Positions 44,935 through 61,949 of a stretch of DNA of 64,000 nt are shown here, one piece after another. Position 1 is the first letter of the stretch. Every line of letters starts with the position of its first letter. The notes under the pieces are model-generated. The model saw only the letters and a program-made list of their open reading frames with translations, searched no databases and was not told the DNA's origin. This DNA is from Coptis chinensis. Taxonomy: Eukaryota > Streptophyta > Magnoliopsida > Ranunculales > Ranunculaceae. Both the position numbers and the translations under genes were made by a program. The stretch spans positions 107,866,501-107,930,500 of the forward strand of contig CM027380.1 of NCBI GenBank assembly GCA_015680905.1. The letters are read 5' to 3'.

Positions 44935-47664
44935 TTAATATCTTTCCTTTATTTCAATGATGGGAATGTGGGTTAAGATGCTCCAGTTTCTCTTAGTAAT
45001 AATAGGGCACAAATAGATTACCAATTTGCGAAGCATGGTGAGTGGTTTCAACTCCTCTGGCTTGAAATCAAGGAATTCGCAGTATCTAAAACTCAATTGT
45101 TGAAGTGACGTGAGTTGGTTTAATCCTTGGGGGAGAGAGGAATGCGGAAGAGAAAAGATTAGAAGAGTCTTGAGGTTGTTGTTGTAGGTGAGGGACATTA
45201 ACGATTTTGAAAGAACACCTACATCTCTCCATAATTCCAGAGTTTCAAGCCGAGGAGGAAAAAGGTAGTGCGGTTCCACCTTCAAATTTGGGCAATTATA
45301 AAGGAACAAGTATGTAATATTGGACATCATCCAAGTAGTAGGGAGCGTGGAGCCAACATAGTTATATATTTCCAATCGTTCCAAGCTTTCTTTATGTGGT
45401 TCCAGATTTTCAAGAACACCTTCCATCCTTCGTATCTCCTCTTCGCTGCTGACGTCTCCAATATATGGCCTATATTCTCTATCTCCGAAACTTAACCCCA
45501 ATAATGAAATGTTTTTCTTTTTATGCAATTCTGCCTGCTTGGCCTCATTCACATTTTTTACATGCCTTAACCCCATAATATATAGGCTTCCTTTTAGAAA
45601 ATTGAGATTTCCTAATTCCCCAATCACGGACCCTTTGCTGCTTCCATCACTCACAACAAACTTACTTAATGTTCGAAGCTGACTCAATCTCTCAATGCCT
45701 CCTCGCGGATAATACATTAGATCAGTAGTGCCTTTGATTTCCAAATGTCTTAGGTTAGAAAGTTCCCCAATTCCTTCTGGCAGTTTGCAAAGCTTAAAAC
45801 AACCATTAAGCTTCAATGTTTGCAAATTAACTAGACCTCTCACTGTCTCAGGCAATTCCGTCAGATTTGAATTATTCGACAAATCAAGGTACCGAAGATG
45901 TAATAATCTACTCACTTCACTTGGAAGTACGCCAAACTCAGAAAATAGGCCTTTATAACCCAAATCCAAGGTCCTAAGACATGTCAACTGGTGTAATGCA
46001 GAAAGTACCGACCTGGATGCTTTTCCTACCAACAGCGTGCGTAACTTCTTCGCTTCATAGATAGATGGATTCTTTACATCATCAACTGTCAAATGACGAA
46101 TCTTGTGACTGCTAATTTTCTCATTATTCACCAAAATAGAGCAATCAGTTTTTGTGAGGTACTCGGCAAAGTCATGTACCAGATCATGCATCTTGCATCT
46201 GAAAATGTTTCCATCATCGTATTTTTCAAAAATTTGGAAGAATGATCGCATCGCTAGAGCATCGAAATACTCGACACCAACCCTCTCTAGCTCTCTTGCT
46301 CCATCAGAGCCGAGATAACCTTGAGCCATCCATAGCTTCACCAACTGATCCTTCTCCATGTTATGGTCTTTCGGAAAGATTGCACAGTACATAAAGCATC
46401 GTTTCAAAACTGACGGCAAAGCGTGATAGCTCAACAGAAGAGCAGGTAAAAAACCTTTTTCTTGTGTTTCCCAAATGTCACTTTCTAATACACCCATCCA
46501 ATCTTCTTTTGCTTGTTTGAATCGCATTAGACTTGCTAATGTCTTGACAGCTAGTGGAACACCTTTGCATTTCTTCGCGAGTTCTTGTCCAATTCCCTTC
46601 AACCTTTCCTGCTCTTGTTGTGTTCTTCCCCAAAAAGCTATTTGCCTAAATATGTGCCAACAGTCATTATCTGACAACTGTGTAAGCCTGTGTATATAAG
46701 TTGAACCGATCATCTTCGCAACTTCCTCGTTACGTGTGGTGACGATGATTTTGCTTCCTCGCTCACCACCATCCAGAGATAATTTCAATGGCTCCCAACA
46801 ACCGGAATCTTCAGTCCAAACATCATCTAGCACAAGCAAAAACTGCTTTCCCTTTACGGAGTTGCACAAAAGTTTGCGTAGAGTTTCACTCCCAACCTCA
46901 CTTTGTGGATTTTTTCCAGTAGCTTGCTCAATGATTTCTCTTGCAACCCTTATAAGATCAAAAGGTTCGGAAACACAAACCCATATTTTCAGCTCAAAAG
47001 TGGTCATTATAGTTTCTTCGTTAAACACTACCTGCGCAAGAGTTGTCTTACCAAACCCGCCAGTTCCAACTATTGACAAGATAGGTACATGAATCCGAGT
47101 TTCTTGTTGACTAGTCTCGCACAGCAGCATGCTTAGCATCTTTTGTTTGTCGAAATCCCGACCATATATATCCATTACATCCACACCAGAGTTAGTAAGT
47201 TGTCGAGGCTCCTCCTCATGGCTATGACTCTGAACGAGGCTTAGTTGATCCTTGTTTAGAGCAATCACATCTAGTCTTTCTCTTATGCATTTAATCCTAT
47301 GAGCAATATCATGGCGTACACTAACATGTTTAAAGCAAGCACACATAGATAACAAGTAGGAACGGACCCTATTGGTAACGTGAGAGCCATTGGCAGAAAT
47401 GAGAATTCGTGAGTTCCATTCATCCAATACATCATCTGCATCATACATCACATCTTCGAGCTCTCCCAACCAAATCTTTACTGCACTATCATGTCTTGCT
47501 TTCTTTTCTGCATCTTCAAGCACTGCTTTAACCAAACGGAGCTTAGTCTCGAGGTTTTCTAATTCTTCACGAACCCCCACCACCAACCGCACCTCCTGTT
47601 CAATTTCTATTCGGATGATTGAGGCCAACTGGTCCACGACAGCAGAAAGTATCGCTTGAGCCAT
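44935..47664 (-). CDS. CC-NB-ARC-LRR (CNL) disease-resistance protein, RGA type
   Basis: A single exon of 909 residues. The N-terminal Rx-type coiled coil (about 1-140) starts MAQAILSAVVDQLASI and includes LGELEDVMYDADDVLDEW. NB-ARC (about 165-500): P-loop GTGGFGKTTLAQVVF, RNBS-A FELKIWVCVSEPFD, kinase-2 FLLVLDDVW, RNBS-B GSKIIVTTRN, GLPL-equivalent CKGVPLAVKTL, RNBS-D CFMYCAIFPKDH, MHD CKMHDLVHDFA. About ten leucine-rich repeats follow (for example LHLRYLDLSNNSNLTELPET). All nucleotide-binding motifs look intact. By family it is an intracellular immune receptor that switches from ADP to ATP state on pathogen sensing. No integrated decoy domain is visible. Its stop lies close to the 5' remnant of the FKBP pseudogene, and an hAT element sits 400 bp upstream of the start. 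Confidence 0.96.
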   Translation of the reverse strand: MAQAILSAVVDQLASIIRIEIEQEVRLVVGVREELENLETKLRLVKAVLEDAEKKARHDSAVKIWLGELEDVMYDADDVLDEWNSRILISANGSHVTNRVRSYLLSMCACFKHVSVRHDIAHRIKCIRERLDVIALNKDQLSLVQSHSHEEEPRQLTNSGVDVMDIYGRDFDKQKMLSMLLCETSQQETRIHVPILSIVGTGGFGKTTLAQVVFNEETIMTTFELKIWVCVSEPFDLIRVAREIIEQATGKNPQSEVGSETLRKLLCNSVKGKQFLLVLDDVWTEDSGCWEPLKLSLDGGERGSKIIVTTRNEEVAKMIGSTYIHRLTQLSDNDCWHIFRQIAFWGRTQQEQERLKGIGQELAKKCKGVPLAVKTLASLMRFKQAKEDWMGVLESDIWETQEKGFLPALLLSYHALPSVLKRCFMYCAIFPKDHNMEKDQLVKLWMAQGYLGSDGARELERVGVEYFDALAMRSFFQIFEKYDDGNIFRCKMHDLVHDFAEYLTKTDCSILVNNEKISSHKIRHLTVDDVKNPSIYEAKKLRTLLVGKASRSVLSALHQLTCLRTLDLGYKGLFSEFGVLPSEVSRLLHLRYLDLSNNSNLTELPETVRGLVNLQTLKLNGCFKLCKLPEGIGELSNLRHLEIKGTTDLMYYPRGGIERLSQLRTLSKFVVSDGSSKGSVIGELGNLNFLKGSLYIMGLRHVKNVNEAKQAELHKKKNISLLGLSFGDREYRPYIGDVSSEEEIRRMEGVLENLEPHKESLERLEIYNYVGSTLPTTWMMSNITYLFLYNCPNLKVEPHYLFPPRLETLELWRDVGVLSKSLMSLTYNNNLKTLLIFSLPHSSLPQGLNQLTSLQQLSFRYCEFLDFKPEELKPLTMLRKLVIYLCPIITKRNWSILTHIPIIEIKERY

Positions 47665-48060
47665 GTTTTTTATGAATCAACAAAAAAGAAATGAGGTACA
47701 AGAAGCTTATTAGGCTGCTCTAGTGTGAAGACTAATAATGGGAGAGTGAGACCAAATCAAGGAGAGATGCACTAGAGTCAAGTCCAAGCCAAATGAATTA
47801 CTGATGTTAGGTTGGAACATGTGGAACAGTGGAAGCGGGGACTGGGGATACCACAAAAGACAAGACTCAATGAAACGCAAAGGTACGCTTAAGCAGATGC
47901 AATGACTGTGTATAATAGAGACAACTTGTTCATATCTGGTCATTGTGAGATTTTCGAGTTTTATTCTTTTTTTCGCTGATTAATGAGTTTTTTTAGTTTT
48001 AACTGTAATTTGGCTTAGCATTGAAATATGTTAATGATTTAACTGTGGGATGGAGACATG
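47665..48060. other. Upstream region of the CNL gene
   Basis: About 400 bp between the CNL start and an hAT element, AT-rich; presumably contains the CNL promoter. No specific motif that I can defend. Confidence 0.4.
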
Positions 48061-48068
48061 GAGTATAG

Positions 48069-49333
48069 CAAGGACCAAAATATCGCCTATATATCCGATA
48101 TATCGCCGATATATATCGTTTTTTTTTTACACCGATATCGATATTTCCGATATATATCCACCGAATATAGAACCATTTTTTCCCGATATATATCGAAATA
48201 TCCTATATAAAACTTTATATCGCGATATAACCGATATATATCGTTTGACTTTTTGACCATTTTTTAATATAAAGATTTCTGATATATCCATATATATCGG
48301 CGAGATATCCGATATATATCCGATGACGAGACACAAGAACCTGATACTGATGATGATGATAGTGGTGGTGGTGATGGTGACAACAATGGTGGTGGTGGTG
48401 GAGGTAATTTTAACGTTCAATTGCATGACTCAACTGATGAGGAAACTCCATTGGACCCACAATTATATGAGGTTGCACCCAGAAACAATAGTGGTAGAGG
48501 AGTTCTTAATGACCATTCCCAAAGAATGTATGAGCCAGGGCGTAGAAGTGTTGGTTAAAGAAGACAACGATGACACATTATACGAAATGATGTTGATATT
48601 GATTCAGTTTCTTCTAATTTTGAAGCAATGAGTATGAGTTCAGGGACACTCGACTATGACAATGAGAAGGTATATGGTAGTGGTTGGGGATACAACCAAT
48701 TAAGAGATAACGATTCTTCTAGTGGCATGATCAGTCACCCTGCGAGTAGTGCGTCATATGGTTCTTCATATGGATATTGGATGGGGGTTGATCAACAACT
48801 TTATGGTGCACCACAACCTGAACCAACATATGGACAACTCTATCCAAGTTATGAATATGTTGGAACTGCACCTGGATTTGTTGCATTGCGCCCAATGTAT
48901 ACTTACACCAACACTCCTCGAATTAAAATCATGTTAGAATTTTCAACACAAAAATATGAGTAGCATGTTCGACAATTTCTCGACGGTGGGTATAACTCTA
49001 TATACACTTGGGTAGGGTATTGTGAAGCAGTTAGGATTCAAGAATCGGATATGGAAGTTGACCAGTCACGTCACTCGTTTATGTATTAATGTAACTTATT
49101 TATCTTATTTTGTAATTTGAGACTTTGAGTACATTAGATTATGATATTGTGGTTAATTATTTGTCAATAATTTTTTATGGTTTTTTATGGTTTTCTTGAT
49201 AAATAAATGTTGCTATTATGTCATTTGATATTTTAGATAGTTTGGACTGGTCACAAAAAAATTGGATATATCCGATATATATCGGTTTTTGGGTACACCG
49301 ATATATTCACCGAATTCAATATTTTGGTCCTTG
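48069..49333. mobile_element. hAT-type element (1265 bp) with CGATATATCG subterminal repeats
   Basis: Perfect 15-bp ends CAAGGACCAAAATAT / ATATTTTGGTCCTTG, flanked by GAGTATAG at 48061-48068 and 49334-49341 (8-bp target duplication). The left 250 bp carries a dense cluster of CGATATATCG / CCGATATATATCGG motifs, and a few more lie at the right end (GATATATCCGATATATATCGG at about 49264). The interior holds the tail of a coding sequence. Probably an internally deleted hAT. Confidence 0.95.
48321..48963 (+). pseudogene. C-terminal coding remnant within the hAT element
   Basis: Frame-shifting plus-strand pieces read DDGGGGGNF-like glycine/aspartate-rich sequence, then DPQLYEVAPRNNSGRGVLN, then, at 48628-48963, SSGTLDYDNEKVYGSGWGYN and YGAPQPEPTYGQLYPSYEYV. 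This is a low-complexity, Tyr/Ser/Gly-rich hydrophilic tail. No BED finger or dimerisation domain is left. Likely the end of the element's own transposase gene, by position only. Confidence 0.45.
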
Positions 49334-49781: not shown

Positions 49782-51548
49782 TATTAACTACCAAGAAATT
49801 GGGCCGAAGGTCCAATTTTAATTCAAAACAACTGTAGAGAACAGTGTTTTGTAGTAATCACTCTCAGACCCATTTTCCACGTCAAAACAACTCACGGACC
49901 TAGTTTTCCTATTTTAATAACCCTCAAGGACAAATTAAGTTGGCCAAGTCCGTTATAATTTTATTAAATACCCTTTTTACCCTTTTGTGTGTTAAGCAAA
50001 TCGAAGATGTTTTCAAAATTAGAAATAAACAACACGCTCTGGTTTCAATCGATTACTTCTTCTCCCTCAATTGAAAATCGAGTGGGTTCCTCAACTGAAG
50101 TTTTCAATCTATAGCTTCTTCTTCTTGCCGTCTAAAAATGTTCTTATTCAAACTTTGTATTTATAATCTATAGTATTTTGAAATCTTCATTTGATTTTGT
50201 TTTGAAATCATCTATTGTTTATAGCAATGATATTATGTGGTGTAATGATGTCTAAAAACGTTAGTTTTTATATCATATTTTGTTTTTTCATATTTTAGAT
50301 CAGATCTATGATTTTGAGATATAATTTGTTTATAGCTATGATATAGTTTTTATATCATGTTTGTTTTGAAAACGCTGTTTTATGTATTTTTCTTAATTGA
50401 ACTTTAGGGTTTGATTTTGATTTTTGCTATGAACAATTATTGTTCATACGTATTTGTTGTATGAACAATCATTGTTCCATACACAAACAGATATGAACAA
50501 CCAATGTTCATAGTAGTTGTAAATACATTGACGATGAATTTTTTCTTAATTGAACTTTAGGTTTTGATTTTGCTTTTTGCTATGAACAATTATTGTTCAT
50601 ACGTATTTGTTGTATGAACAATCATTGTTCATACCCAAACAGCTATGAACAACCAATGTTTATAGTAGTTGTAAATACATTTGATGATGCATTTTATTAT
50701 GATTTTGTAGTTTATATGGATCATAGTGTGATTGGAGTTTTTTGTTACAATGGTGGTAGTCTTTCCATTTGTATTGGGTTGGATTCTTCTATTGGTGTTG
50801 TTGTACAAGAGTTACATGAAAAATGGCCTGATTTGGGATTAACATGCTATAATATGTGTTTCAACCGTAACGAGAAAGATAACCTGATTGAATCTGATGG
50901 GGAGTTGCATTCTTTGGCTTGTTACTGTTTTGCAAAGAAGATTGCAATTGTTGAGATCAGAGTGGTTGTTTGTGTCACTTCGTTGATTACCTCTAGTGGT
51001 TCTATTTCTGCAAGTTCTTCAAGTTCATCAAGTTCTTCAGTTAGTGGTGGTGGTGGTGGTGGTGTGGTTGTTGTTCGTAAACCTTTCAAGTCTGATTTTT
51101 GGGCAAGAAACTTTGATGGTGGTGTTGGGCAGCGATTTGCTTTAGGTGCGCCTGAGTTTTGCTGTAAATTGATAGAGTATTCGATTGTCAGTGGTTACAA
51201 ATATGAATTAATAAAGAATGACGAGTTTAGAGTGACCGCGGTTTGTGAGAATAAGAAGGATGGAAACTGTGAATGGTGTATATACTCTTGCGATACATAT
51301 GAAAGTTTTGAAATTAAGAAGATTAATCTTACACACACTTGTGGTTTTGCATTTAAAGACTACAACCATCCTCCTCTCACTTCTTATCTTGTAATGACTC
51401 ATATTTTGGATTTTGCTAGAGATAAACCATCTTTGTCATTGGGAGATATTACTTCTTTTTATAGTCGTGAGTATGGGCTTAAGATTTCTAAACATATGAG
51501 TTATGCGGGTAAGAAGTTGGCATTGACAGAGTTGTATGGTGATTTTGC

Positions 51549-53248
51549 TGTAGGAACCGTTATTTTAGAATGAATATTCTACAAACCGCGAACACCACGC
51601 GCATCGGAATTAATGGGTGTCCACGATTTTGGATAGAAAGTTCATACCTTTTGAATCCGGCTTCTTGATATCTCTGAGAATCCAATAGCTATGAAATCCG
51701 AATCAACAATCAACCCCTTGATTTTTGTTGTATTCATTTAGAATAGATTGGATGTTGTGTGGGCAACGATCTACCAACCCCTTTCTTTCTCTCAAAGCTA
51801 GATCCAATTTTGGATCTATCTTTCCTTGCCTCTTTTTCTAATCCAGTGAATAGTGAATTTCGACCAGGAGAAAAAGGATTCTATTTATAGACTACAACAG
51901 GGACCATGAGGAGAAATTAGGGTTGGGCCTCCGACGGGCTTGGGATTCCCATGTTCGTCCAGAACACACGACCCAAGTCCGTCAACAAATGGCTTATTCC
52001 ACTAAAGGTCATTGTTGCACTACCGCCCTAATCCCAAATTACGTGTCAGTGTTTATGGGCTCCATATTATATACTCGTTGATCTCCCCATGTTTAAGATA
52101 TCGAATGCCCGTTGATTAAGTCAAGTTACTAACAACTACATTAATCAACTTCTTATGTCCTTGAGTAGTACCACTCAACCTCATTGTCATGTCGGAATAA
52201 ATCCACCTGCAGGGTTTACATGACAATCTTTTTGAGCTCCTCAAGGGGACATCATCAACCCGACTTCCTGCGGGTCACGGATTCCTTCTATAATCAACAA
52301 CACACCTTACATATAATGTCATTACCTAATCCATCGAGTTTGTTGATTCACAAATGAATCTCACTCATTGATGATTTAAAGCAATGTACAATGCACGTAA
52401 ATGCCCGTTATTATATCCGGATTAAGAGGACAAACATCCATAATAACAGAGGTGTTTGTTCTCTTATATAGTCAGTATAAAGAGAAACAACCTCACTTGG
52501 TCCTGTTCAATACACACAAAGTGTACTAGTGTAATCTTATAGTCAAGATAGACTAATACCAGATTATACTACAACCGTACCAATGGTTTGTCCAAATCAA
52601 TGTTTTGAAAACTGAACCGGTGATCGAACCGATTTTTTGTTAAAATGGTTCAACCAGGTTCAACCATGGTTCAACTCGGTCGGACCGATTGATGTTTATT
52701 TAACAAATTTTTTAATAATTACAATAATAAAATATATAAATATATGTTTTAATTCAATATTAATTGGTATTATATATCAAAATAAATTTATTATACAAGA
52801 AATACATAGGAGTATGTTGGTTTGGAGTTTGGATTATCTTGTTTAGGTGTTAGGTTCAACTATTATCAATTTTTCAAAAAAAAAAAAAAAAAAAAAAATT
52901 ATATAAGGGTGATCCGGTTTTAGAGTCGAACCGTTCGCCCGGTTCAACCACGGTTTAAGTTTGTAAAATTTATCGGTTCGGTCGGACCCCGGTTCAAACC
53001 GGTCCGGTCCGGTTTTCTAAACACCGGTCCAAATCCATTTAGGTCGCGGAACTATTACTTATACAACGATAATATGATCTTCGTGTGTGTTCACACCATA
53101 TCATATCATCTACAAATAAAGTATTAGACACATGCATATAACTAATAACATATATAATATGCATAACATTTGCCCATATGATTATCATTCAAAATATAAA
53201 GAATTAGAGTTAATACAAAAGTAATGCTTTTAGTATATAACCCTATCA
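51549..53248 (-). mobile_element. Solo LTR inside the MULE transposase (1700 bp including a nested MITE)
   Basis: On the plus strand it runs TGTAGGAACC ... AACCCTATCA; read on the minus strand it is TGATAGGG ... CCTACA with a TATA box (CTATAAATAGAATCC, minus, about 51870). Flanks are TTTGC (51544-51548) and GTTGC (53249-53253), a 5-bp duplication with one mismatch. Taking it out restores the reading ...LYGDF-ALSYNELLWYTKEL. There is no internal retroelement region, so it is a recombined solo LTR. A 428-bp MITE is nested in it. Confidence 0.88.
52599..53026. mobile_element. MITE (428 bp) nested in the solo LTR, 9-bp target duplication
   Basis: GTCCAAATC flanks both ends (52590-52598 and 53027-53035). 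Inverted ends: AATGTTTTGAAAACTGAACCGG on the left, and CGGTGTTTAGAAAACCGGACCGG from the right on the other strand. Rich in GGTTCAACC / AACCGG. An A run (52876-52898) lies inside. The 9-bp duplication suggests a non-autonomous MULE. Confidence 0.9.
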
Positions 53249-55700
53249 GTTGCTTTATCCTATAATGAACTTTTGTGGTATACGAAGGAGTTGAAGCGAA
53301 GAGATCCTGGGAATTGTGTTGATCTTCAGGTGAATGAAGAGAGTGGGAAGTTTGAGAGGGTGTTTGTTGTTTTTGAATCGAGTATTAATGGTTTTAAATA
53401 CTATAGAGCAATGGTGTATTTAGATGGAACCTTCTTGAGATCAGAGTATAAAGGGTGCTTGTTGGCTGCTACTACCAAAAATGGAGATCAAGGTGTTCCT
53501 TTATTTTTACTTTCATGTTTTATTGTTGAACATGTATTAGTGTTGATATCTGCTTAGAGGTATGGAGTATGAACACTCATTGTTCATGTCTGTTGTGGGT
53601 ATGAACATTCCTTGTTCAAATCTGGTTTGGGTATGAACACTCATTGTTCATATCTGTTTTGGATATGAACATGTATTGTTCATAACTTTTCAGTTATCTC
53701 ATATTTGGTTATTTTTTGTGGTTTTGTAGGATTATTCCCTCTTGATGTTGGTGTTGTTGATATTGAAAATGAATCAAATTGGTTTTGGTTTCTCAATATG
53801 TTTAAGAAGGCTTTTGGTTATGAGAGAAGGTATACCTTTTTGAGTGATAGATATCATGGTTTGCTTGTGAACATTCCTCTTGTATTTCTTGATTCATATC
53901 ACAATTGCTGCTTGTGGAACATAGAGAACAACCTTCGAACAGCTTTGTCAAAGACATGTGGTGTTTCGAAATATTTGGTGTGCTTATTCAAGAAATGTGT
54001 TTATGCTTCCATGCATGAGGAGTTTCAAGAGCACATGGCTGAATTGTTGAATATAGGTGGAGATGCAGTATCTAATTTTCTATCTAGGGCACCTTATGAT
54101 AATTGGGTTAATGCATACTTTTGTGGTGCCCGGTATGGTGAGATATGCTCTTCTTTGGGAAAGTGTTTCAATAGCTGGATAGACAAAGAGCGTCATCTGC
54201 CTATCACAGCCATGTTAGATGAAATTTGCATGAAGATGATGAAAATGGCATCGGACCAGAGGATGGAGTGCAAGAATTGGAAAACTATTCTTTGTCCTAA
54301 AATGGAAGTGAAATTGGCTAAGAGGATTGAGGAGGCTCGTTCTGTGACTGTGGCAAGGTCAGATGAGCACGTGTTTCAAGTTGTTACGGAGAAGCATGAG
54401 TATCGGGTTGACTTGCTTAGTAGATATTGCACTTGTAATAATTGGGGCATAGACAGGTTCCCGGCCTTGTCGGCATGCAATTGCGAGTATTTATTGCAAA
54501 GGGGATTCAGTGTATTCATACATTGAAGTTGCATTTCTCGCCACTTCGTTCAGCAACACGTACTCTCATGGCATCACTGCAATTAGCCGCAATGAGATCT
54601 GTTCGGATGTTTCTGATGAAGTAGAAATTTTTCCACCAGATGTGAAGAGGGCTCCAGGTATGTAGACCACGAGTTAAGAGGATTGAGAACACGGGTGCTA
54701 TGCGTTATACTGCCCACAAATGTAGAAAATGCCACAAAACCGACCGGCACGACCGAAAGACTTGTCGTGGGAAAACTTCTAACACTGCTGATGTGGAATC
54801 TAGAGCAAGGGATGAGTTGCCTAGTGGTAGTGGTGATATGGTATTAAGGTTTTGGCAATTTTTTTGATGTGGGAAGCACTAGTGAGGTTGTTTGATGTTT
54901 TTGTATTAAATATTTTTTGATTGAATGATAGTTATTAATACAGTTTATTTGGAATTCATTTTTAAAGTCTCTTATGATTTCATTCATTTATTTAATTTTG
55001 ATTGTATGATACCTATTTAGGGTATTCATACCAATTGGTGGGTATGAACAATCAATGTTCATACATGAATAGGTATGAACAATCAATGTTCATACCTATT
55101 TAGGGTATGAACAATCAATGTTGATATATCAATTCATTCATGGATATAACAATTTTCATTCATGGATATAACAATTGGTGGGTATGAACAATCAATGTTC
55201 ATACATGAATAGGTATGAACAATCAATGTTCATACCTATTTAGGGTATGAACAATCAATGTTCATACATGGTATGAACAATCAATGTTGATATATCAATT
55301 CATTCATGGATATAACAATTGGTGGGTATGAACAATCAATGTTCATACTTATTTATGAACAATGAACTTTGATTTTTCATACCATTGTTCATACTCATAT
55401 TAATACAGATGTGAAACAGTGAGAAACACAGTGATTGTTTGGGTATGAACAATAAGTGTTCATACCTATTTCGTGTATGAACAATGGATGTTCATACCCA
55501 CCAAATTTAGTTTAGGGTATTACGTGTCACGTCCTAAATAAACGGTTTCGTGTCCACTTTAAATACAAAACTAACTTCTCATTTTGCACACATTTCCAAA
55601 AAATAGCGAAAGCAAAAAGAAAACTAACACAAAAACAGTAAAACCCTAGATTCCTTTTTAAACTAAAATTGTCTCCAAAATTAGAATCAAAATATATCAA

Positions 55701-55781
55701 ATGGATGAAATTTTGTGCAATACTGAAAATTGCAAGAACCCTAGGTATGAGAACGACATTTACTGTGAAGAACACAAATAA
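55701..55781 (+). CDS. Small Cys/His-rich open frame, possible first exon of the Ulp1-gene region
   Basis: 26 codons, MDEILCNTENCKNPRYENDI then YCEEHK-stop. The C-x4-C-x10-C-x2-H spacing looks like a small zinc-binding motif. The downstream sequence in another frame is very acidic (DDEKTDTDDDDGNAEEEEE, 55830-55980). It may be a separate mini-gene or the N-terminal exon of the Ulp1-like gene with a later stop. Function not known. Confidence 0.4.
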   Translation: MDEILCNTENCKNPRYENDIYCEEHK

Positions 55782-55829
55782 GAAATATCAAATGTCGTAT
55801 AAAGTATTGTAAATGATACTGTTGAAGAA

Positions 55830-58800
55830 CAAGGTGAAGATGACGAGAAAACAGATACTGATGATGATGATGGAAATGCAGAAGAAGAAGAAGAAAAAAA
55901 AGAAGAACAAGAACAAGGAAAAGAAGAAGAAGAAGAAGAAGGGGAAGAAGATGCAGAAGAAGAAGAAGATTTAGAGGTTTTTTTTAAAAAAAATTATTGA
56001 TTTTATTTTTTGCAAGAAAGTGGTATGAACAATGTGTGTTGATACGTCTGTTTTTGCATGTTAGGATTTGAATATGTTAGGACCGCGTAGAATAGGAAAT
56101 AGGCATGAACATTTATTGTTCATACTCATATTAGATTATGAATACTCATATTCATGTAATATAGCATGATAGTAAATATGTATGAATACTGATTTTTCAT
56201 AACTTTGTTTTGCATGTTAGGATTTGAATGTTGGAAATCAAGAAGTACAACAACAACAAGATGGAGGAGAAGATGATTTGGAGGTTCCATTAAAGGTACA
56301 TTTACATTAGTGATTACTCATAACTCTGTATGAACAATAATTGGTCATAGTACACTGGGTATGAACATTAATTGTTCATAGTCCATTGGGATGAACATTA
56401 ATTGTTCATAGTCCCTGGGTATGAACATTGATTTCATACCTTTACAATAACAAAACTATGTTTATAATTTGCATGTCTTACCTTCAATTATTTGCAGTCC
56501 TTAATTCGAGGAAGGAAGAAAAGCAATATGGAGAAGAAGAAGAAAGCCGATAAGTCCCCTGTGAGTAGAAGTGTTAGTAGAAAGTTATCTTTGAGATTTG
56601 ACACACCAAACAAAAGTTGTGTTTGAGATCTGCATCCAAAAAAAGGAAACCGGAGTCGAGCAGCGCTGCCGGCCAATCTAAAAAACTAAAGACAAAGAAA
56701 ACTAGTAAAGGGAAGGTTGTGGTCAAGAATACTAGTAAAGGGAAGGTTGTGGTCAAGAATACTAGGAAAGGGAAGGTGATGGAAGAGAAGGAAGATGAGG
56801 AAGATGAGAAAGAGAATGTTAAAGGTAGCACAGTAGCACCTGTGCAGCTGCGATGTACCTTCTCACACATGATAAGTTTGGTACAAAAACTCAAAGAAGT
56901 GGGAATTCCAAAAAAGTATGTCGATGAAATGAAGAAGACACCGTTTTGGTTTATGTTTTATGAGTTATACAACAGTGGGATTGTTGAAGGAAACAAATTC
57001 AAGCCAAACAAAGAAATATTCTATCTCTTGGACAATTTCAAATCAGTACCTGAGGAGTCATTTGAGATTGTAAAAAAAAATGGTAAAGCTAACTGTAGAG
57101 GAGGTTAGTCTCATGTTTGGGCTGCCTATCACAAATACTTTGGTTCAGTTAAATAGGACTGTTGGAGATGATGAAAAGAAAACCAGCTTCATTAAAAAGT
57201 ACTTTGGTGATGGAAACACCAGGTATTCCAAGTCTCATGTTGAAGATGGCATAATGAGGACTTTGGCAACCACTGATGAGCAATCGCTTTTCATGTTGGT
57301 TACATGTTTCTTCAGCAATGCCAAATACAGAGCATCATGGCCATTGATCAAGGCTGTTGACAACTTGGATACACTTAGAAGTCTGTCTTGGCCAACTGCC
57401 ATACACAAGGAGTTAATTGATGCTGCCATTGAATACAAAGAAGCAAAAAAACAGACGATCAATGGATGCACTATAATGTTTTTAGTATATTTCTTTAACT
57501 CAATATCCTTAATTTATGGTTGTTTGTCTGTTTTATAATAATTTGTGGGTATGAACAATAAATGTTCATAGCTATTGGTGGGTATGAACAATGAATGTTC
57601 ATACATGGATACCTATTGGTGGGTATGAACAACCAATGTTCATAGCTAATGGTGGGTATGAACACTCAATGTTCATAGCTATTGGTGGATATGAACAATG
57701 AATGTTCATACATGGATACCTATTGGTGGATAGCTAATAGTGGGTATGATCAAATGATGCACTATAATGTTTTTGGTATATTTCTTTAACTCAATATCCT
57801 TAATTTATGGTTGTTTGTCTGTTTTTATAACAATTTGTGGGTATGAACAATAAATGTTCATAGCTATTGGTGGGTATGAACAATTAATGTTCATACATGG
57901 ATACTTATTGGTGGGTATGAACAATCAATGTTCATAGCTAATGGTGGGTATGAACAATCAATGTTCATAGCTATTGGTGGATATGAACAATGAATGTTCA
58001 TACATGGATACCTATTGGTGGATAGCTAATAGTGGGTATGATTAATCAATGTTCATAGCTATTGGTGGGTATGAACAACCAATATTCTAGCTATTGGTGG
58101 GTATGAACAACCAATGTTCATATATATTATTAGGGTATGAACATTGATTGATTTAATGTTTTGGTTTATTGGTGTGTGAACTAATATGGCTTTCGTCACG
58201 TGCGTTGCAGTTTTGGTTTTGTGAGCACTCTGTAGTCATCAAGAAGGTAGAGAACCATGAAACCAAATTCCCGAGGTGTGCAAGGTGGAATTTGAAGACC
58301 TTGCTTGATGCGTTTCGAAAGACACCAATAACATAAATAGCTGCAAGTTAGATTATTGTTGATGCTGAAGCAGCATCAGAGGCTGAAAAGACTTTACTTC
58401 ATGACATGTATAGTGATTTAGTCACAAACAATGAAGTAACAGTCCAGTCTACTACAGAAAACATTGATGCATTGAAATTGGAGAACAAAGAACTGAAGGA
58501 GAGGGTAATTGAGCTTGAAAAGCAAATTATGTCTTCTAGAGATGAAATTGAAAAGTTAAAGGAGCAGCAAGAGAGGGATATGTCTGATGAGGTTGAATTG
58601 CAACCTAATGAAGTAACGGATGAAGTCCACCCATCTAAAGAAGTGCAGCAGGGGCATCTTGATGAAGTCACGGATGCAGTCCACCAGGCTGAAGTGCCGC
58701 AGGGGCATTCTGACGAAGTCACAACTGAAGTAATGGATGAAGTCCACCCACCTAAAGAATTGCAGCAGGTGCATCCTGATGAAGTCACGGATGCAGTGGC

Positions 58801-60830
58801 TGAAGTGCAACAGGGGCATTCTGACGAAGCCACAATTGAAGTTGCGGATGAAGTTCAGCAGAGGAAGAATGTCACAGAACCTTTTGATGGTCCATCATTT
58901 GATCTACGCCTAACCTTGTCACCTCCAGATAAAGATGAGGAGAAGGATGTCGAGGGATCCAAGAAACCTTGCTCACTTGTAAAGCGAGTGAAGCAAAATA
59001 AAGAAAGGAAAAGTAAAGTGATTGGCGAGGATTTCATTGGAGATGGGCGAAAAAAGAAGAAGAAAGGTGACACTGGCAAGCAAACTCTTGTTGATGACAG
59101 TACCGTTCGTTCTCTGCTTGAACTGAAGACGTGTTGATACTATGTGGGTTTGGAAGAAACCCATCGAGAAGTCATTGACACGTTCTTCAAAATTGTGGAC
59201 AGTGGGTAAGTTTAAGATACCAAAAAATAATATTTTTGAGTAAATATCTTGTTAGACTAATGGTTATTTCTTATGGTTTTTGAAGAGCTATTGCTTGGTC
59301 AAATGGAACATTACAAATTCAAGGTGTTCTAGTTGAAGATATTCTCTTTGATAGAGAAATTGATCACCAGGTAAATTTTATTCATACCACAATTGGACTA
59401 TGAACAATTATTGTTCATAGTCTTTAGCTATGAACACTCATTGTTCATACCCACAATTGGACTATGAACAATCATTGTTCATAGTCTTTAGCTATGAACA
59501 CTCATTGTTCATACTCCAGCAATGGTTATGAACAATCATTGTTCATACTCGAGCAACTTGCCAATAATCTGGTAGCTATGAACACTCATTGTTCATACCA
59601 CAATTGGACTATGAACATTCATTGTTCATACTCCAGCAATGGGTATGAACATTCATTGTTCATAGTCATAAGCTATTTATGTGATGTCAATTTTTTAAAA
59701 AAAAACTTATCCATTCAACATGTCATCGACTGGTGGGCGATAGAACTTCAACAGAGGAAGACTGGAAAAGCATAAACTTGTCTAGTATCTGCAAACACTA
59801 AGGTGAATTTTTTATTAAAAAAAATATTTTTATTTCATCTATTATTATTGTCACATTCTTATTATTTCACACAATTGTTGACACAGAGATTGTTGGAAGA
59901 AGTAGGATTGGAAACCATATTGAAGAGCATTGACTTCTCTTTGAAATTCATTGCCATTCCAATTCATTTGGACAATCATTGGACTCTTCTTGTGTTGGAG
60001 TTGGTGGAGGGACAACAAACAAGATGGTATTACTTCAACTCCCTAAGCCAGACAAAAAAGGGGTTGGAAGTTGCAAAAGAATTTGTGAGTTCGACAATAA
60101 ACACTTAAATTACATAATTTTTTTTATGTTGAAATATAAAGAAATAACTTATTGTAATTTTGCAGAAGAAGGTACTAGTTGAGTCAATAAACAATCTTAT
60201 CAGAAAGGGGGATTTGAAAATCCAGCTTGTCGGTAATAAAGGAAGAATACTTTCACCAAAATGTTCGCAGCAAAACAATAGGTAATTATTTATTTATGTG
60301 TTACATGTGTGAACTATGATTGTTCATTCCTATTGGGTATGAACAATGAGTGTTCATACCTCAGACAGCTATGAACATTGGTTGTTCATGCCTCAGATAG
60401 GTATGAACATTGGTTGATTGTGATTTGACTGTGTATTCTCTAAATTGACTGTGTACTCTCTAAATTTAGGTATACAATAGGTATGAACAATGACTTTTCA
60501 TGCATCAGATAGCTATGAACAATCATAGTTCATACCCATAAGAACTATGAACAATAAATGTTTATACTCCAATACGTATGAATACAATGATTCCTTATAT
60601 TTTAGCACTGATTGTGTATTCTCTAAATTGCAGCGTTGATTGTGGGTTCCATGTATATAAAATGATGGAAATTTTGTATGAACAAGGTCATATGGATTTC
60701 TAGCAATTTATAAATGAAGAGGAAATACAAAAGTTCGCCCTCACATTGCATGCAGAATGCTTTCAGACTTGCCGAGAAGTTGGAGTAAAGAAGATCATGA
60801 TTTTCAGGAAAATTATAGAAAGGGATTGTT
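55830..60830 (+). pseudogene. MULE-borne Ulp1 (C48 peptidase)-like gene, broken
   Basis: Pieces: acidic stretch 55830-55978; exons 56221-56295 and about 56497-56561; 56617-57080 (KSKK/KGKVVV repeats, then CTFSHMISLVQKLKEVGIPK); 57080-57480 (TVEEVSLMFGLPITNT, a DUF1985-like phrase); about 58210-58340; 58372-59136 (coiled coil, then DEV/EVHP/QQGH acidic repeats); 59286-59370; 59725-59775; 59887-60084 (IPIHLDNHWTLLVLELVEG, RWYYFNSL); 60166-60281; 60634 on (VDCGFHVYKMMEILYEQG). The C48 catalytic set is His in NHW, Asp (here Asn, YFNSL), Gln in SQQNN and Cys in DCG. Damage: frame slip in the A9 run at 57072-57080, a stop at about 58337, one near 59773, TAG at 60701. By family a SUMO-type protease; here probably inactive. 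Confidence 0.85.
57465..58046. repeat. Direct tandem duplication, 291-bp unit
   Basis: 57465-57755 and 57756-58046 both start GATGCACTATAATGTTTTT(A/T)GTATATTTC and end in TGGTGGATAGCTAATAGTGGGTATGAT. Each copy contains about five of the 21-bp palindromes. It duplicates the end of an exon and the start of the following intron of the Ulp1-like gene. Confidence 0.92.
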
Positions 60831-61949
60831 TGCTGAATGAATGTGAGATTTTAGAAAGGGAATGTTTTGCTGAATGAATGTGAGGAAGGCAAAAAACATT
60901 ATATTTTATGGTGTGTTTTGTGCACAATGATATTTTGTTTATGAACAGGGAGCGACTCTAGAATGAAGCAGCAAAGAAGGCAAATTCTGTTATTTTGTGG
61001 TGTTTTTTGTGCACAATGATACCTTTTTTTGTGCACAATGATATTTGTTTATGAAAGTTAAATATTGGTGTTTTTAATGTGTATCTTATTATTATTTATA
61101 TTATGTTTATTTATAACTAATTTTCATATTATTTATATCCTTTTTTCATAACTGTTGTTCATAATTGGGGCTATGAACATTTATTGTTCATATCTTTAAA
61201 AGGTATGAACAATGAGTGTTCATAGCTCCAATAGGTATGAACATTTATTGTTCATATATGTTTTGGGTATGAACAATCAATGTTCATATCTATTTTAGGT
61301 TCATATTTTTTTTTGGGTATGAACATTGATTGTTCATATCCAAAGAGGTATGAACAATCAATGTTCATATCTGTTTTGGGTGTGAACATTTATTGTTCAT
61401 AGCTAATGTTCATAATTTGGGGTATGAACAGTTATTGTTCATATCTGTTTTGGGTTCATGTTTTCATAGCCACAATCAATGTTCATAGCTGATGTTCAGC
61501 ATGGGTAGGTATGAACAATCAATATTCATACCTATCGTGGGTATGAACAATCAATGTTCATAACTTGATCAATGTTCATACATGGATAGATATGAACAAT
61601 GTTTGTTCATAGCTAATGTTCATAATTGGGGGTATGAACAATCAATGTTCATACCTATTTGAGTTATGAACAATGATTCAGTTATTGTTCATAGCTATTG
61701 TTCATACCTACTGTGGATATGAACAATCAATGTTCATAACCGGGTTGTTTCAGTTGGGTTGGGCCGTTTATTTTTTTTCTTCAGGAGTATACTTGACATT
61801 TCATCTACCCGAGCCGTTCTAATTTCGTGAAAAGGGTAAACTTGAACTTTCATCCACCCGGTCCTTGTGAGTGATTACAAAAATAACGTGTCCTCTAGAG
61901 TTCCTCTTTCAGCTGATTTGTCTTTTAGAGTCGCTCCTGTATTAACTAC

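Follow-up and report, generated by a model that had tools for sequence, protein, structure and literature searches.

An internal array of 21-bp dyad-symmetric sites in a Mutator-like element of Coptis chinensis, candidate targets of an element-encoded protein

The DNA analysed here is a 64-kb window of contig CM027380.1 from Coptis chinensis (Ranunculales), and all positions below are those of the window. It contains a Mutator-like element (MULE) of 12.1 kb, whose non-coding DNA carries 67 exact or imperfect copies of a 21-bp interrupted palindrome. Besides the transposase gene, interrupted by a nested solo long terminal repeat (LTR), the element holds a second gene (gene 2), which ends in a Ulp1-type protease domain. 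The features are collected in Table 1. The exon borders were set by eye, guided by reading frames and splice signals, and are approximate.

The assignment of the element to the MULEs is clear. A 10-bp target-site duplication (TSD), TATTAACTAC, stands at both ends, colinear with the terminal inverted repeat (TIR) blocks, and its length lies within the approximately 9-11 bp of MULEs. The TSD lengths of other MULE groups are given, and the VANDAL group is treated, elsewhere (PMC6446971; this paper and those cited below are represented by excerpts, and what is said of them holds for those excerpts). The duplication consists of two overlapping exact 9-mers, the sole exact 9-base matches among 105,930 flanking position pairs outside the TIR blocks. 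The alignment of the TIR blocks is weak by itself, with a score of 33 vs 31 for the best of 20 shuffles, and 13 of the outer 38 bases of the element ends agree. The joined transposase protein matches the Pfam MULE (1.5e-12) and SWIM (6.5e-6) domains. Its 5' exon is 90.5% identical to the paralogue P0002, which is uninterrupted at the insertion point of the solo LTR. The protein reads CLWN, the fourth place being His in 10 of 11 aligned relatives. These 11 relatives come from Coptis, Thalictrum and Camellia. The underlying search returned 30 proteins, 14 of them from C. chinensis, followed by one from Thalictrum and five from Camellia. Peptide patterns of seven or six residues translated from the palindrome are absent from all 30, and the bare YEQ is present in three. 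Both genes of this copy are broken. The copy is therefore decayed, and any function would belong to the family or to intact relatives.

All 46 exact matches of the window to TATGAACA-N5-TGTTCATA are placed inside the element, at 50428-61738, and 100 dinucleotide shuffles give a mean of 0.00. An earlier, sequence-only reading of this DNA had proposed such an array within the MULE, and its existence and concentration are borne out. The same reading counted about 70 copies, which is reached only when imperfect ones are included: with up to three mismatches the window holds 68 sites (shuffle mean 0.83), 67 of them within the element. The remaining imperfect site lies outside the element. The arms, described as strictly conserved, are exact in 46 of the 67 element sites, whereas 14 sites carry one mismatch, three carry two and four carry three; each arm base is 93-100% conserved. 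A scan of all interrupted palindromes in the window (8-bp arms, spacers of 0-12) ranks the TATGAACA/TGTTCATA pair first, with 46 copies. Apart from shifted readings of these sites, the top family is a TA-repeat sequence with 6 copies. Taken alone, the left arm occurs 67 times, always at 50428-61718, and the right arm 59 times, once outside the element, at 47927. A scan of viral contigs gives eight stretches with a single palindrome each and no arrays, which corresponds to background.

The 5-bp spacer is not free, contrary to what had been supposed. It reads N-T-N-A-N, with T at the second base in 62/67 sites and A at the fourth in 62/67. These two bases are complementary in 57 of the 67 sites, whereas bases 1 and 5 are so in just 11. 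Since bases 2 and 4 are conserved and complementary, the dyad extends into the centre of the site and the free positions are spacer bases 1, 3 and 5. In 49 cases an exact right arm comes no more than 23 bases after an exact left arm, and in 46 of these the spacer is exactly 5.

The 67 sites were picked by arm similarity, and conservation was therefore retested on units picked by the exact left arm alone. Of these 67 units, 46 have an exact right arm, 11 a right arm with one mismatch and 10 a right arm with at least two. The mean modal frequency is 0.896 for the right arm, 0.69 for the spacer, 0.46 for the next 8 bases and 0.56 for the 8 bases upstream. In the 19 units with a left-arm distance of exactly 32 bp, the right arm averages 0.91 vs 0.61 for the linker (p = 1.6e-4), and the difference persists when these units are reduced to one per block (n = 10, p = 0.0018). 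The arms are thus conserved beyond the linkers, which supports the earlier reading. Certain linker positions adjoining the arms are also conserved, up to 0.84, in the 32-bp units.

The sites are restricted to non-coding DNA. None of the 67 lies in the approximate exons (4997 bp, vs 5371 bp of non-coding DNA), in the nested solo LTR or in the outermost 636 bp at the start and 201 bp at the end of the element, TIR blocks included, which are also free of exact arms; the avoidance of exons, element ends and LTR noted before is confirmed. One lone left arm, at 60677, is located inside the last exon. Sites are present in the 5' leader, the intergenic region, the 3' region and all six introns longer than 100 bp (imperfect sites only in gene-2 intron A), whereas the three introns of 46-67 bp have none. 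The sites contain no CpG in 1407 bp, and CG methylation could therefore not sit in them. The observed/expected CpG ratio is 0.18 in the array linkers, 0.64 in the other non-coding DNA of the element, 0.49 in the window upstream of the element and 0.98 in the nested LTR. This CpG poverty may reflect a CpG-free ancestral unit, the decay of methylated CpG or selection.

The arrays are built of tandem repeats. Many of them show 30-34-bp units in Tandem Repeats Finder, which also lists larger units of 153, 140 and 292 bp, the 292-bp duplicate pair being 96.6% identical. Among the 56 distances below 110 bp between neighbouring sites, 37 are of 30-34 bp, approximately three helical turns. The linkers of separate arrays resemble, as judged by eye, relatives of one 11-mer, and the spacers are mostly in one common orientation. 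On account of these distances, linkers and orientation, a unit of about 32 bp was probably multiplied and moved inside the element, after which the linkers drifted and the dyad was retained. The earlier assertion that simple slippage would not leave such a pattern is half right, because tandem growth together with the retention of the arms explains the arrays.

The N-terminal part of the gene-2 product is acidic and basic; it is followed by a central domain, a probable coiled coil and the C-terminal Ulp1-type protease. The last of these matches SENP1 chains at E values of 0.004-0.005, and the HMMER alignment with SENP1 places its His, Gln and Cys in register. In the same alignment, the segment at 59887-60286 has Asn at the Asp position of SENP1, which is either decay of this copy or a trait of the family. 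The gene opens at 55701-55778 with a short Cys/His-rich frame (C-x4-C-x10-C-x2-H), followed by a stop. This frame has weak Pfam matches to CxC6, WRC and TRM13-type fingers, all below the cut-off, and may encode a finger with which the gene-2 product binds DNA. The coiled-coil part is a possible dimerisation region. For part of the central domain, a structure modelled from the single sequence has a mean pLDDT of 46.6.

Table 1. Features of the MULE and its palindrome arrays in the window; exon borders are placed by eye
Feature	Positions	Strand	Basis or remarks
Whole MULE, 12.1 kb including nested LTR	49792..61939	+	TSD and colinear degenerate TIRs
Left TSD, TATTAACTAC, 10 bp	49782..49791	.	38 bp outside TIR block
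Right TSD, TATTAACTAC, 10 bp	61940..61949	.	38 bp outside TIR block
Degenerate left TIR block	49830..49870	+	Local alignment score 33
Degenerate right TIR block	61860..61902	-	Local alignment with left block
Transposase exon, 5' part (MuDR DNA-binding domain)	50716..51546	+	Pfam DBD_Tnp_Mut 1e-4 and 2.6e-4, below cut-off
Nested solo LTR within transposase exon	51549..53248	.	TG...CA ends, TTTGC/GTTGC flanks, no palindromes
Transposase exon after LTR (start of MULE domain)	53252..53492	+	Pfam
Last transposase exon (end of MULE domain, SWIM finger)	53730..54665	+	Frameshift near SWIM finger
Gene 2, about 9 exons, several stops and frameshifts	55701..60790	+	Peptidase_C48; exon borders by eye
Central domain of gene-2 product	56602..57460	+	Without significant Pfam match; contains a frameshift
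Probable coiled coil and acidic-repeat part of gene-2 product	58352..59137	+	Weak coiled-coil-family matches below cut-off; heptads by eye
Ulp1-type protease exons	59887..60790	+	Peptidase_C48 4.1e-15, cut-off passed
Array 1, leader upstream of transposase	50428..50664	.	6 sites, 4 exact; 153-bp tandem duplication
Array 2, transposase intron	53568..53684	.	4 sites, 2 exact; 32-bp period
Array 3, intergenic	55043..55496	.	11 sites, 8 exact; 140-bp repeat
Array 4, gene-2 intron A	56024..56201	.	3 sites, 0 exact
Array 5, gene-2 intron B	56329..56440	.	3 sites, 1 exact, and half-site
Array 6, gene-2 intron C	57550..58156	.	12 sites, 11 exact; tandem duplication of 292 bp (96.6% identity)
Array 7, gene-2 intron E	59399..59664	.	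8 sites, 8 exact
Array 8, gene-2 intron H	60308..60570	.	6 sites, 1 exact
Array 9, 3' region	61172..61738	.	14 sites, 11 exact

We favour, with moderate confidence, the explanation that the palindromes form a site array for a protein that the element itself encodes, most likely the gene-2 product, and that binds DNA sequence-specifically as a dimer, with an anti-silencing role similar to that of VANC. The gene-2 product would bind the palindromes as a dimer, a form of binding suggested by the dyad of the site together with the probable coiled coil. The bound protein, distributed over introns, intergenic and terminal non-coding DNA, would mark the element as its own and would remove or block host DNA methylation, as VANC does on VANDAL elements. 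The earlier reading, which is partly supported overall, offered a dimeric protein site or a hairpin; it is the protein site that is favoured here.

The systems with which the locus is best compared are the VANDAL elements of Arabidopsis. The protein VANC21 of VANDAL21 binds YAGTATTAY and causes methylation loss; this motif reaches high density chiefly in introns, between genes and in the non-coding DNA of the termini, where tandem repeats have spread it, and the targets of VANC6 bear AGTTGTCC/AGTTGTAC (PMC5735166). VANDALs have degenerate TIRs, and RNA-directed DNA methylation targets the same non-coding regions (PMC10398659). Certain VANDALs hold a VANC gene with a Ulp1 domain and act on one another via specific motifs, the capture of Ulp1 being dated to the monocot/eudicot separation (PMC13317346). 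A non-autonomous Arabidopsis element with direct repeats is a possible VANC6 target (PMC12312487). The Coptis element shares with VANDAL21/Hiun and VANDAL6 the degenerate TIRs and a protein encoded besides the transposase (PMC5735166, PMC10398659), as well as one short motif that is dense in the same kinds of non-coding DNA and has spread in tandem (here 67 sites, none in exons). The best reading of these likenesses is that the locus would work like a VANC/VANDAL system. The element is not classed as a VANDAL, because hmmscan does not detect in gene 2 the DUF1985 domain of VANC-type proteins. Its host belongs to the Ranunculales, and the VANDALs compared are from Arabidopsis.

Other MULEs and DNA transposons share part of the picture. 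The Kaonashi (KI) MULEs and the Ulp1-carrying VANC genes provide degenerate-TIR elements with a further gene for a Ulp1-type protease (PMC13317346; PMC2528002, grapevine), and here too the Ulp1 domain is found in a further gene of a non-TIR MULE. In the KI MULEs of Arabidopsis the Ulp1 domain is reverse to mudrA, whereas both genes of the Coptis element are on the + strand; both orientations are known in other plants (PMC2528002). The excerpts on KI MULEs mention no dense palindrome (PMC13317346; PMC2528002). Muta1 and other mosquito MULEs combine many short tandem repeats (of 12 bp, in 9 copies) with a palindromic motif (PMC5225508). Those repeats and the motif lie in the 145-bp TIRs, whereas here the sites are internal, the ends are site-free and the repeated unit is itself a palindrome.

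The TnpA sites of the CACTA element En/Spm are subterminal. The sites of the Coptis element are internal, and its transposase belongs to another superfamily. The likeness to En/Spm consists in repeated short sites within a DNA transposon, bound by its own protein (putatively so in Coptis), and in the link of TnpA to demethylation (PMC10398659). The sequence-only reading knew of no described MULE with such a density of internal palindromes. Dense internal motif arrays are known from VANDALs and are not described as palindromes in the excerpts of that work (PMC5735166). No MULE with palindromes throughout its introns turned up in the excerpted literature, which was no full survey, and among the literature matches listed the one MULE with a palindromic motif is the mosquito Muta1, with its motif in the TIRs. 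The commonest 21-mer and two of its sub-strings have no mention in the literature searched. What is new here is the 21-bp dyad symmetry of the site, in Ranunculales.

Several points weigh against a VANC-like site array. The motifs of VANC21 and VANC6 are of 8-9 bp and are not described as palindromes in the excerpts, whereas the Coptis site is a 21-bp dyad word. DUF1985 and DUF287 are not detected in the gene-2 pieces scanned with Pfam, and the searches with gene-2 proteins give no homologue at E <= 0.01. In three recent duplicates, 3/194 arm positions differ vs 17/381 others, which is not significant (p = 0.053). Helical phasing beyond common ancestry is not robust: with a period of 10.5, the complete set of 56 non-independent distances gives p near 0 and the 19 distinct ones give p = 0.23, and by linker groups p is 0.014 (30 groups), 0.59 (18) and 0.50 (4). 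Motif density and helical periodicity are reported to be determinants by Sasaki et al. All site counts rest on one element copy.

The missing DUF1985 match allows two views of the central domain of the gene-2 product. With E values up to 10, hmmscan of the joined domain gives only HAD_2 (0.035) and Forkhead (0.14), both below the cut-off, and a kinship to DUF1985 too remote for hmmscan is possible. Alternatively, the domain may be unrelated to DUF1985 and belong to an anti-silencing protein that binds the 21-bp dyad as a coiled-coil dimer, the Ulp1-carrying MULEs of the Ranunculales having evolved anti-silencing through target arrays independently or diverged beyond recognition. This view is tentative and on the whole unlikely.

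The foremost rival to the site array is a neutral, functionless minisatellite, in which a palindrome-containing 32-bp unit spread by slippage and unequal exchange. It would account for the 30-34-bp period seen in 37/56 distances, the duplications of 153, 140 and 292 bp, the linkers akin to one 11-mer, the single spacer orientation and the duplicates in which arms and remaining positions do not differ significantly. It accounts less well for the retention of arms and spacer bases 2 and 4 from one array to the next alongside diverging linkers within the same unit, and for sites with differing linkers and spacings in all six long introns, the leader, the intergenic DNA and the 3' region. A neutral minisatellite is judged improbable.

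Host transcription factors offer another account, to which a low probability is given: sites such as that of an HD-Zip dimer (CAATNATTG, which we take to be the dimer consensus) would drive the expression of the element. The site is indeed a dyad, CAATNATTG is contained in 8/67 sites, and nine such words occur in the element vs one in the rest of the window. However, the full word is missing from 59/67 sites, the outer TATGAA/TTCATA, conserved at 93-100% per base, is not required by the HD-Zip consensus, and late introns and 3' DNA hold sites besides the upstream region.

Hairpins in the intron or leader RNA, acting in the splicing or stability of RNA, or giving rise to small RNAs or serving as their decoys, are still less probable. 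Array 7 folds at -106.5 vs a shuffle mean of -48.5 kcal/mol (z -13.4), but any palindrome gives such fold stability, and intergenic and terminal DNA also hold arrays. Of the 31 altered pairs of the arms, 30 have one-sided changes (8 still G-U) and one has a double change that leaves it unpaired, so that compensating changes number zero. The filter of three mismatches would hide sites with two compensating double changes. A search of the element without this filter, for perfect palindromes of equal geometry but other arms, covers that gap and finds two, neither being a compensated variant of the site. It is the sequence of the arms that is preserved and not their pairing, and the lack of compensation in both analyses speaks for a dimeric protein site rather than a hairpin. 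Least probable of all are binding sites of the MULE transposase itself, as decoys or transposition enhancers: a MuDR-type DNA-binding domain is encoded (Pfam score below the cut-off) and the TIRs of Muta1 are composed of short tandem repeats with a terminal palindromic motif (PMC5225508), but such sites are expected in the termini, as in Muta1, and the first 636 and last 201 bp here contain neither a site nor an exact arm.

The neighbourhood of the element contains further features. An element at 48069-49333 has CAAGGACCAAAATAT as its inverted ends and is flanked by an exact duplication of 8 bp, GAGTATAG; it is presumably hAT-like by the length of the duplication. A coding sequence inside it, at 48628-48909, is fused to MULE exons in the Coptis gene model P0024, which matches the locus in three segments, two of them at 99-100% and the third, immediately upstream of the MULE, at 94.7%. 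On the reverse strand, the DNA at about 46000-47700 resembles by eye an NB-LRR resistance-type gene beside the element.

If an element-encoded protein does bind the sites, their dyad word would provide a second, longer address for sequence-specific demethylation tools, beside the short VANC motifs. The word is long, dyad-symmetric and easy to search, and its fixed pattern of 16 bases can be scanned genome-wide without alignment; the co-evolution of binding protein and target would therefore be traceable copy by copy. The Ranunculales are an early-branching eudicot order. If the sites are bound by a protein of the element, sequence-specific self-marking by transposons would extend to this order.

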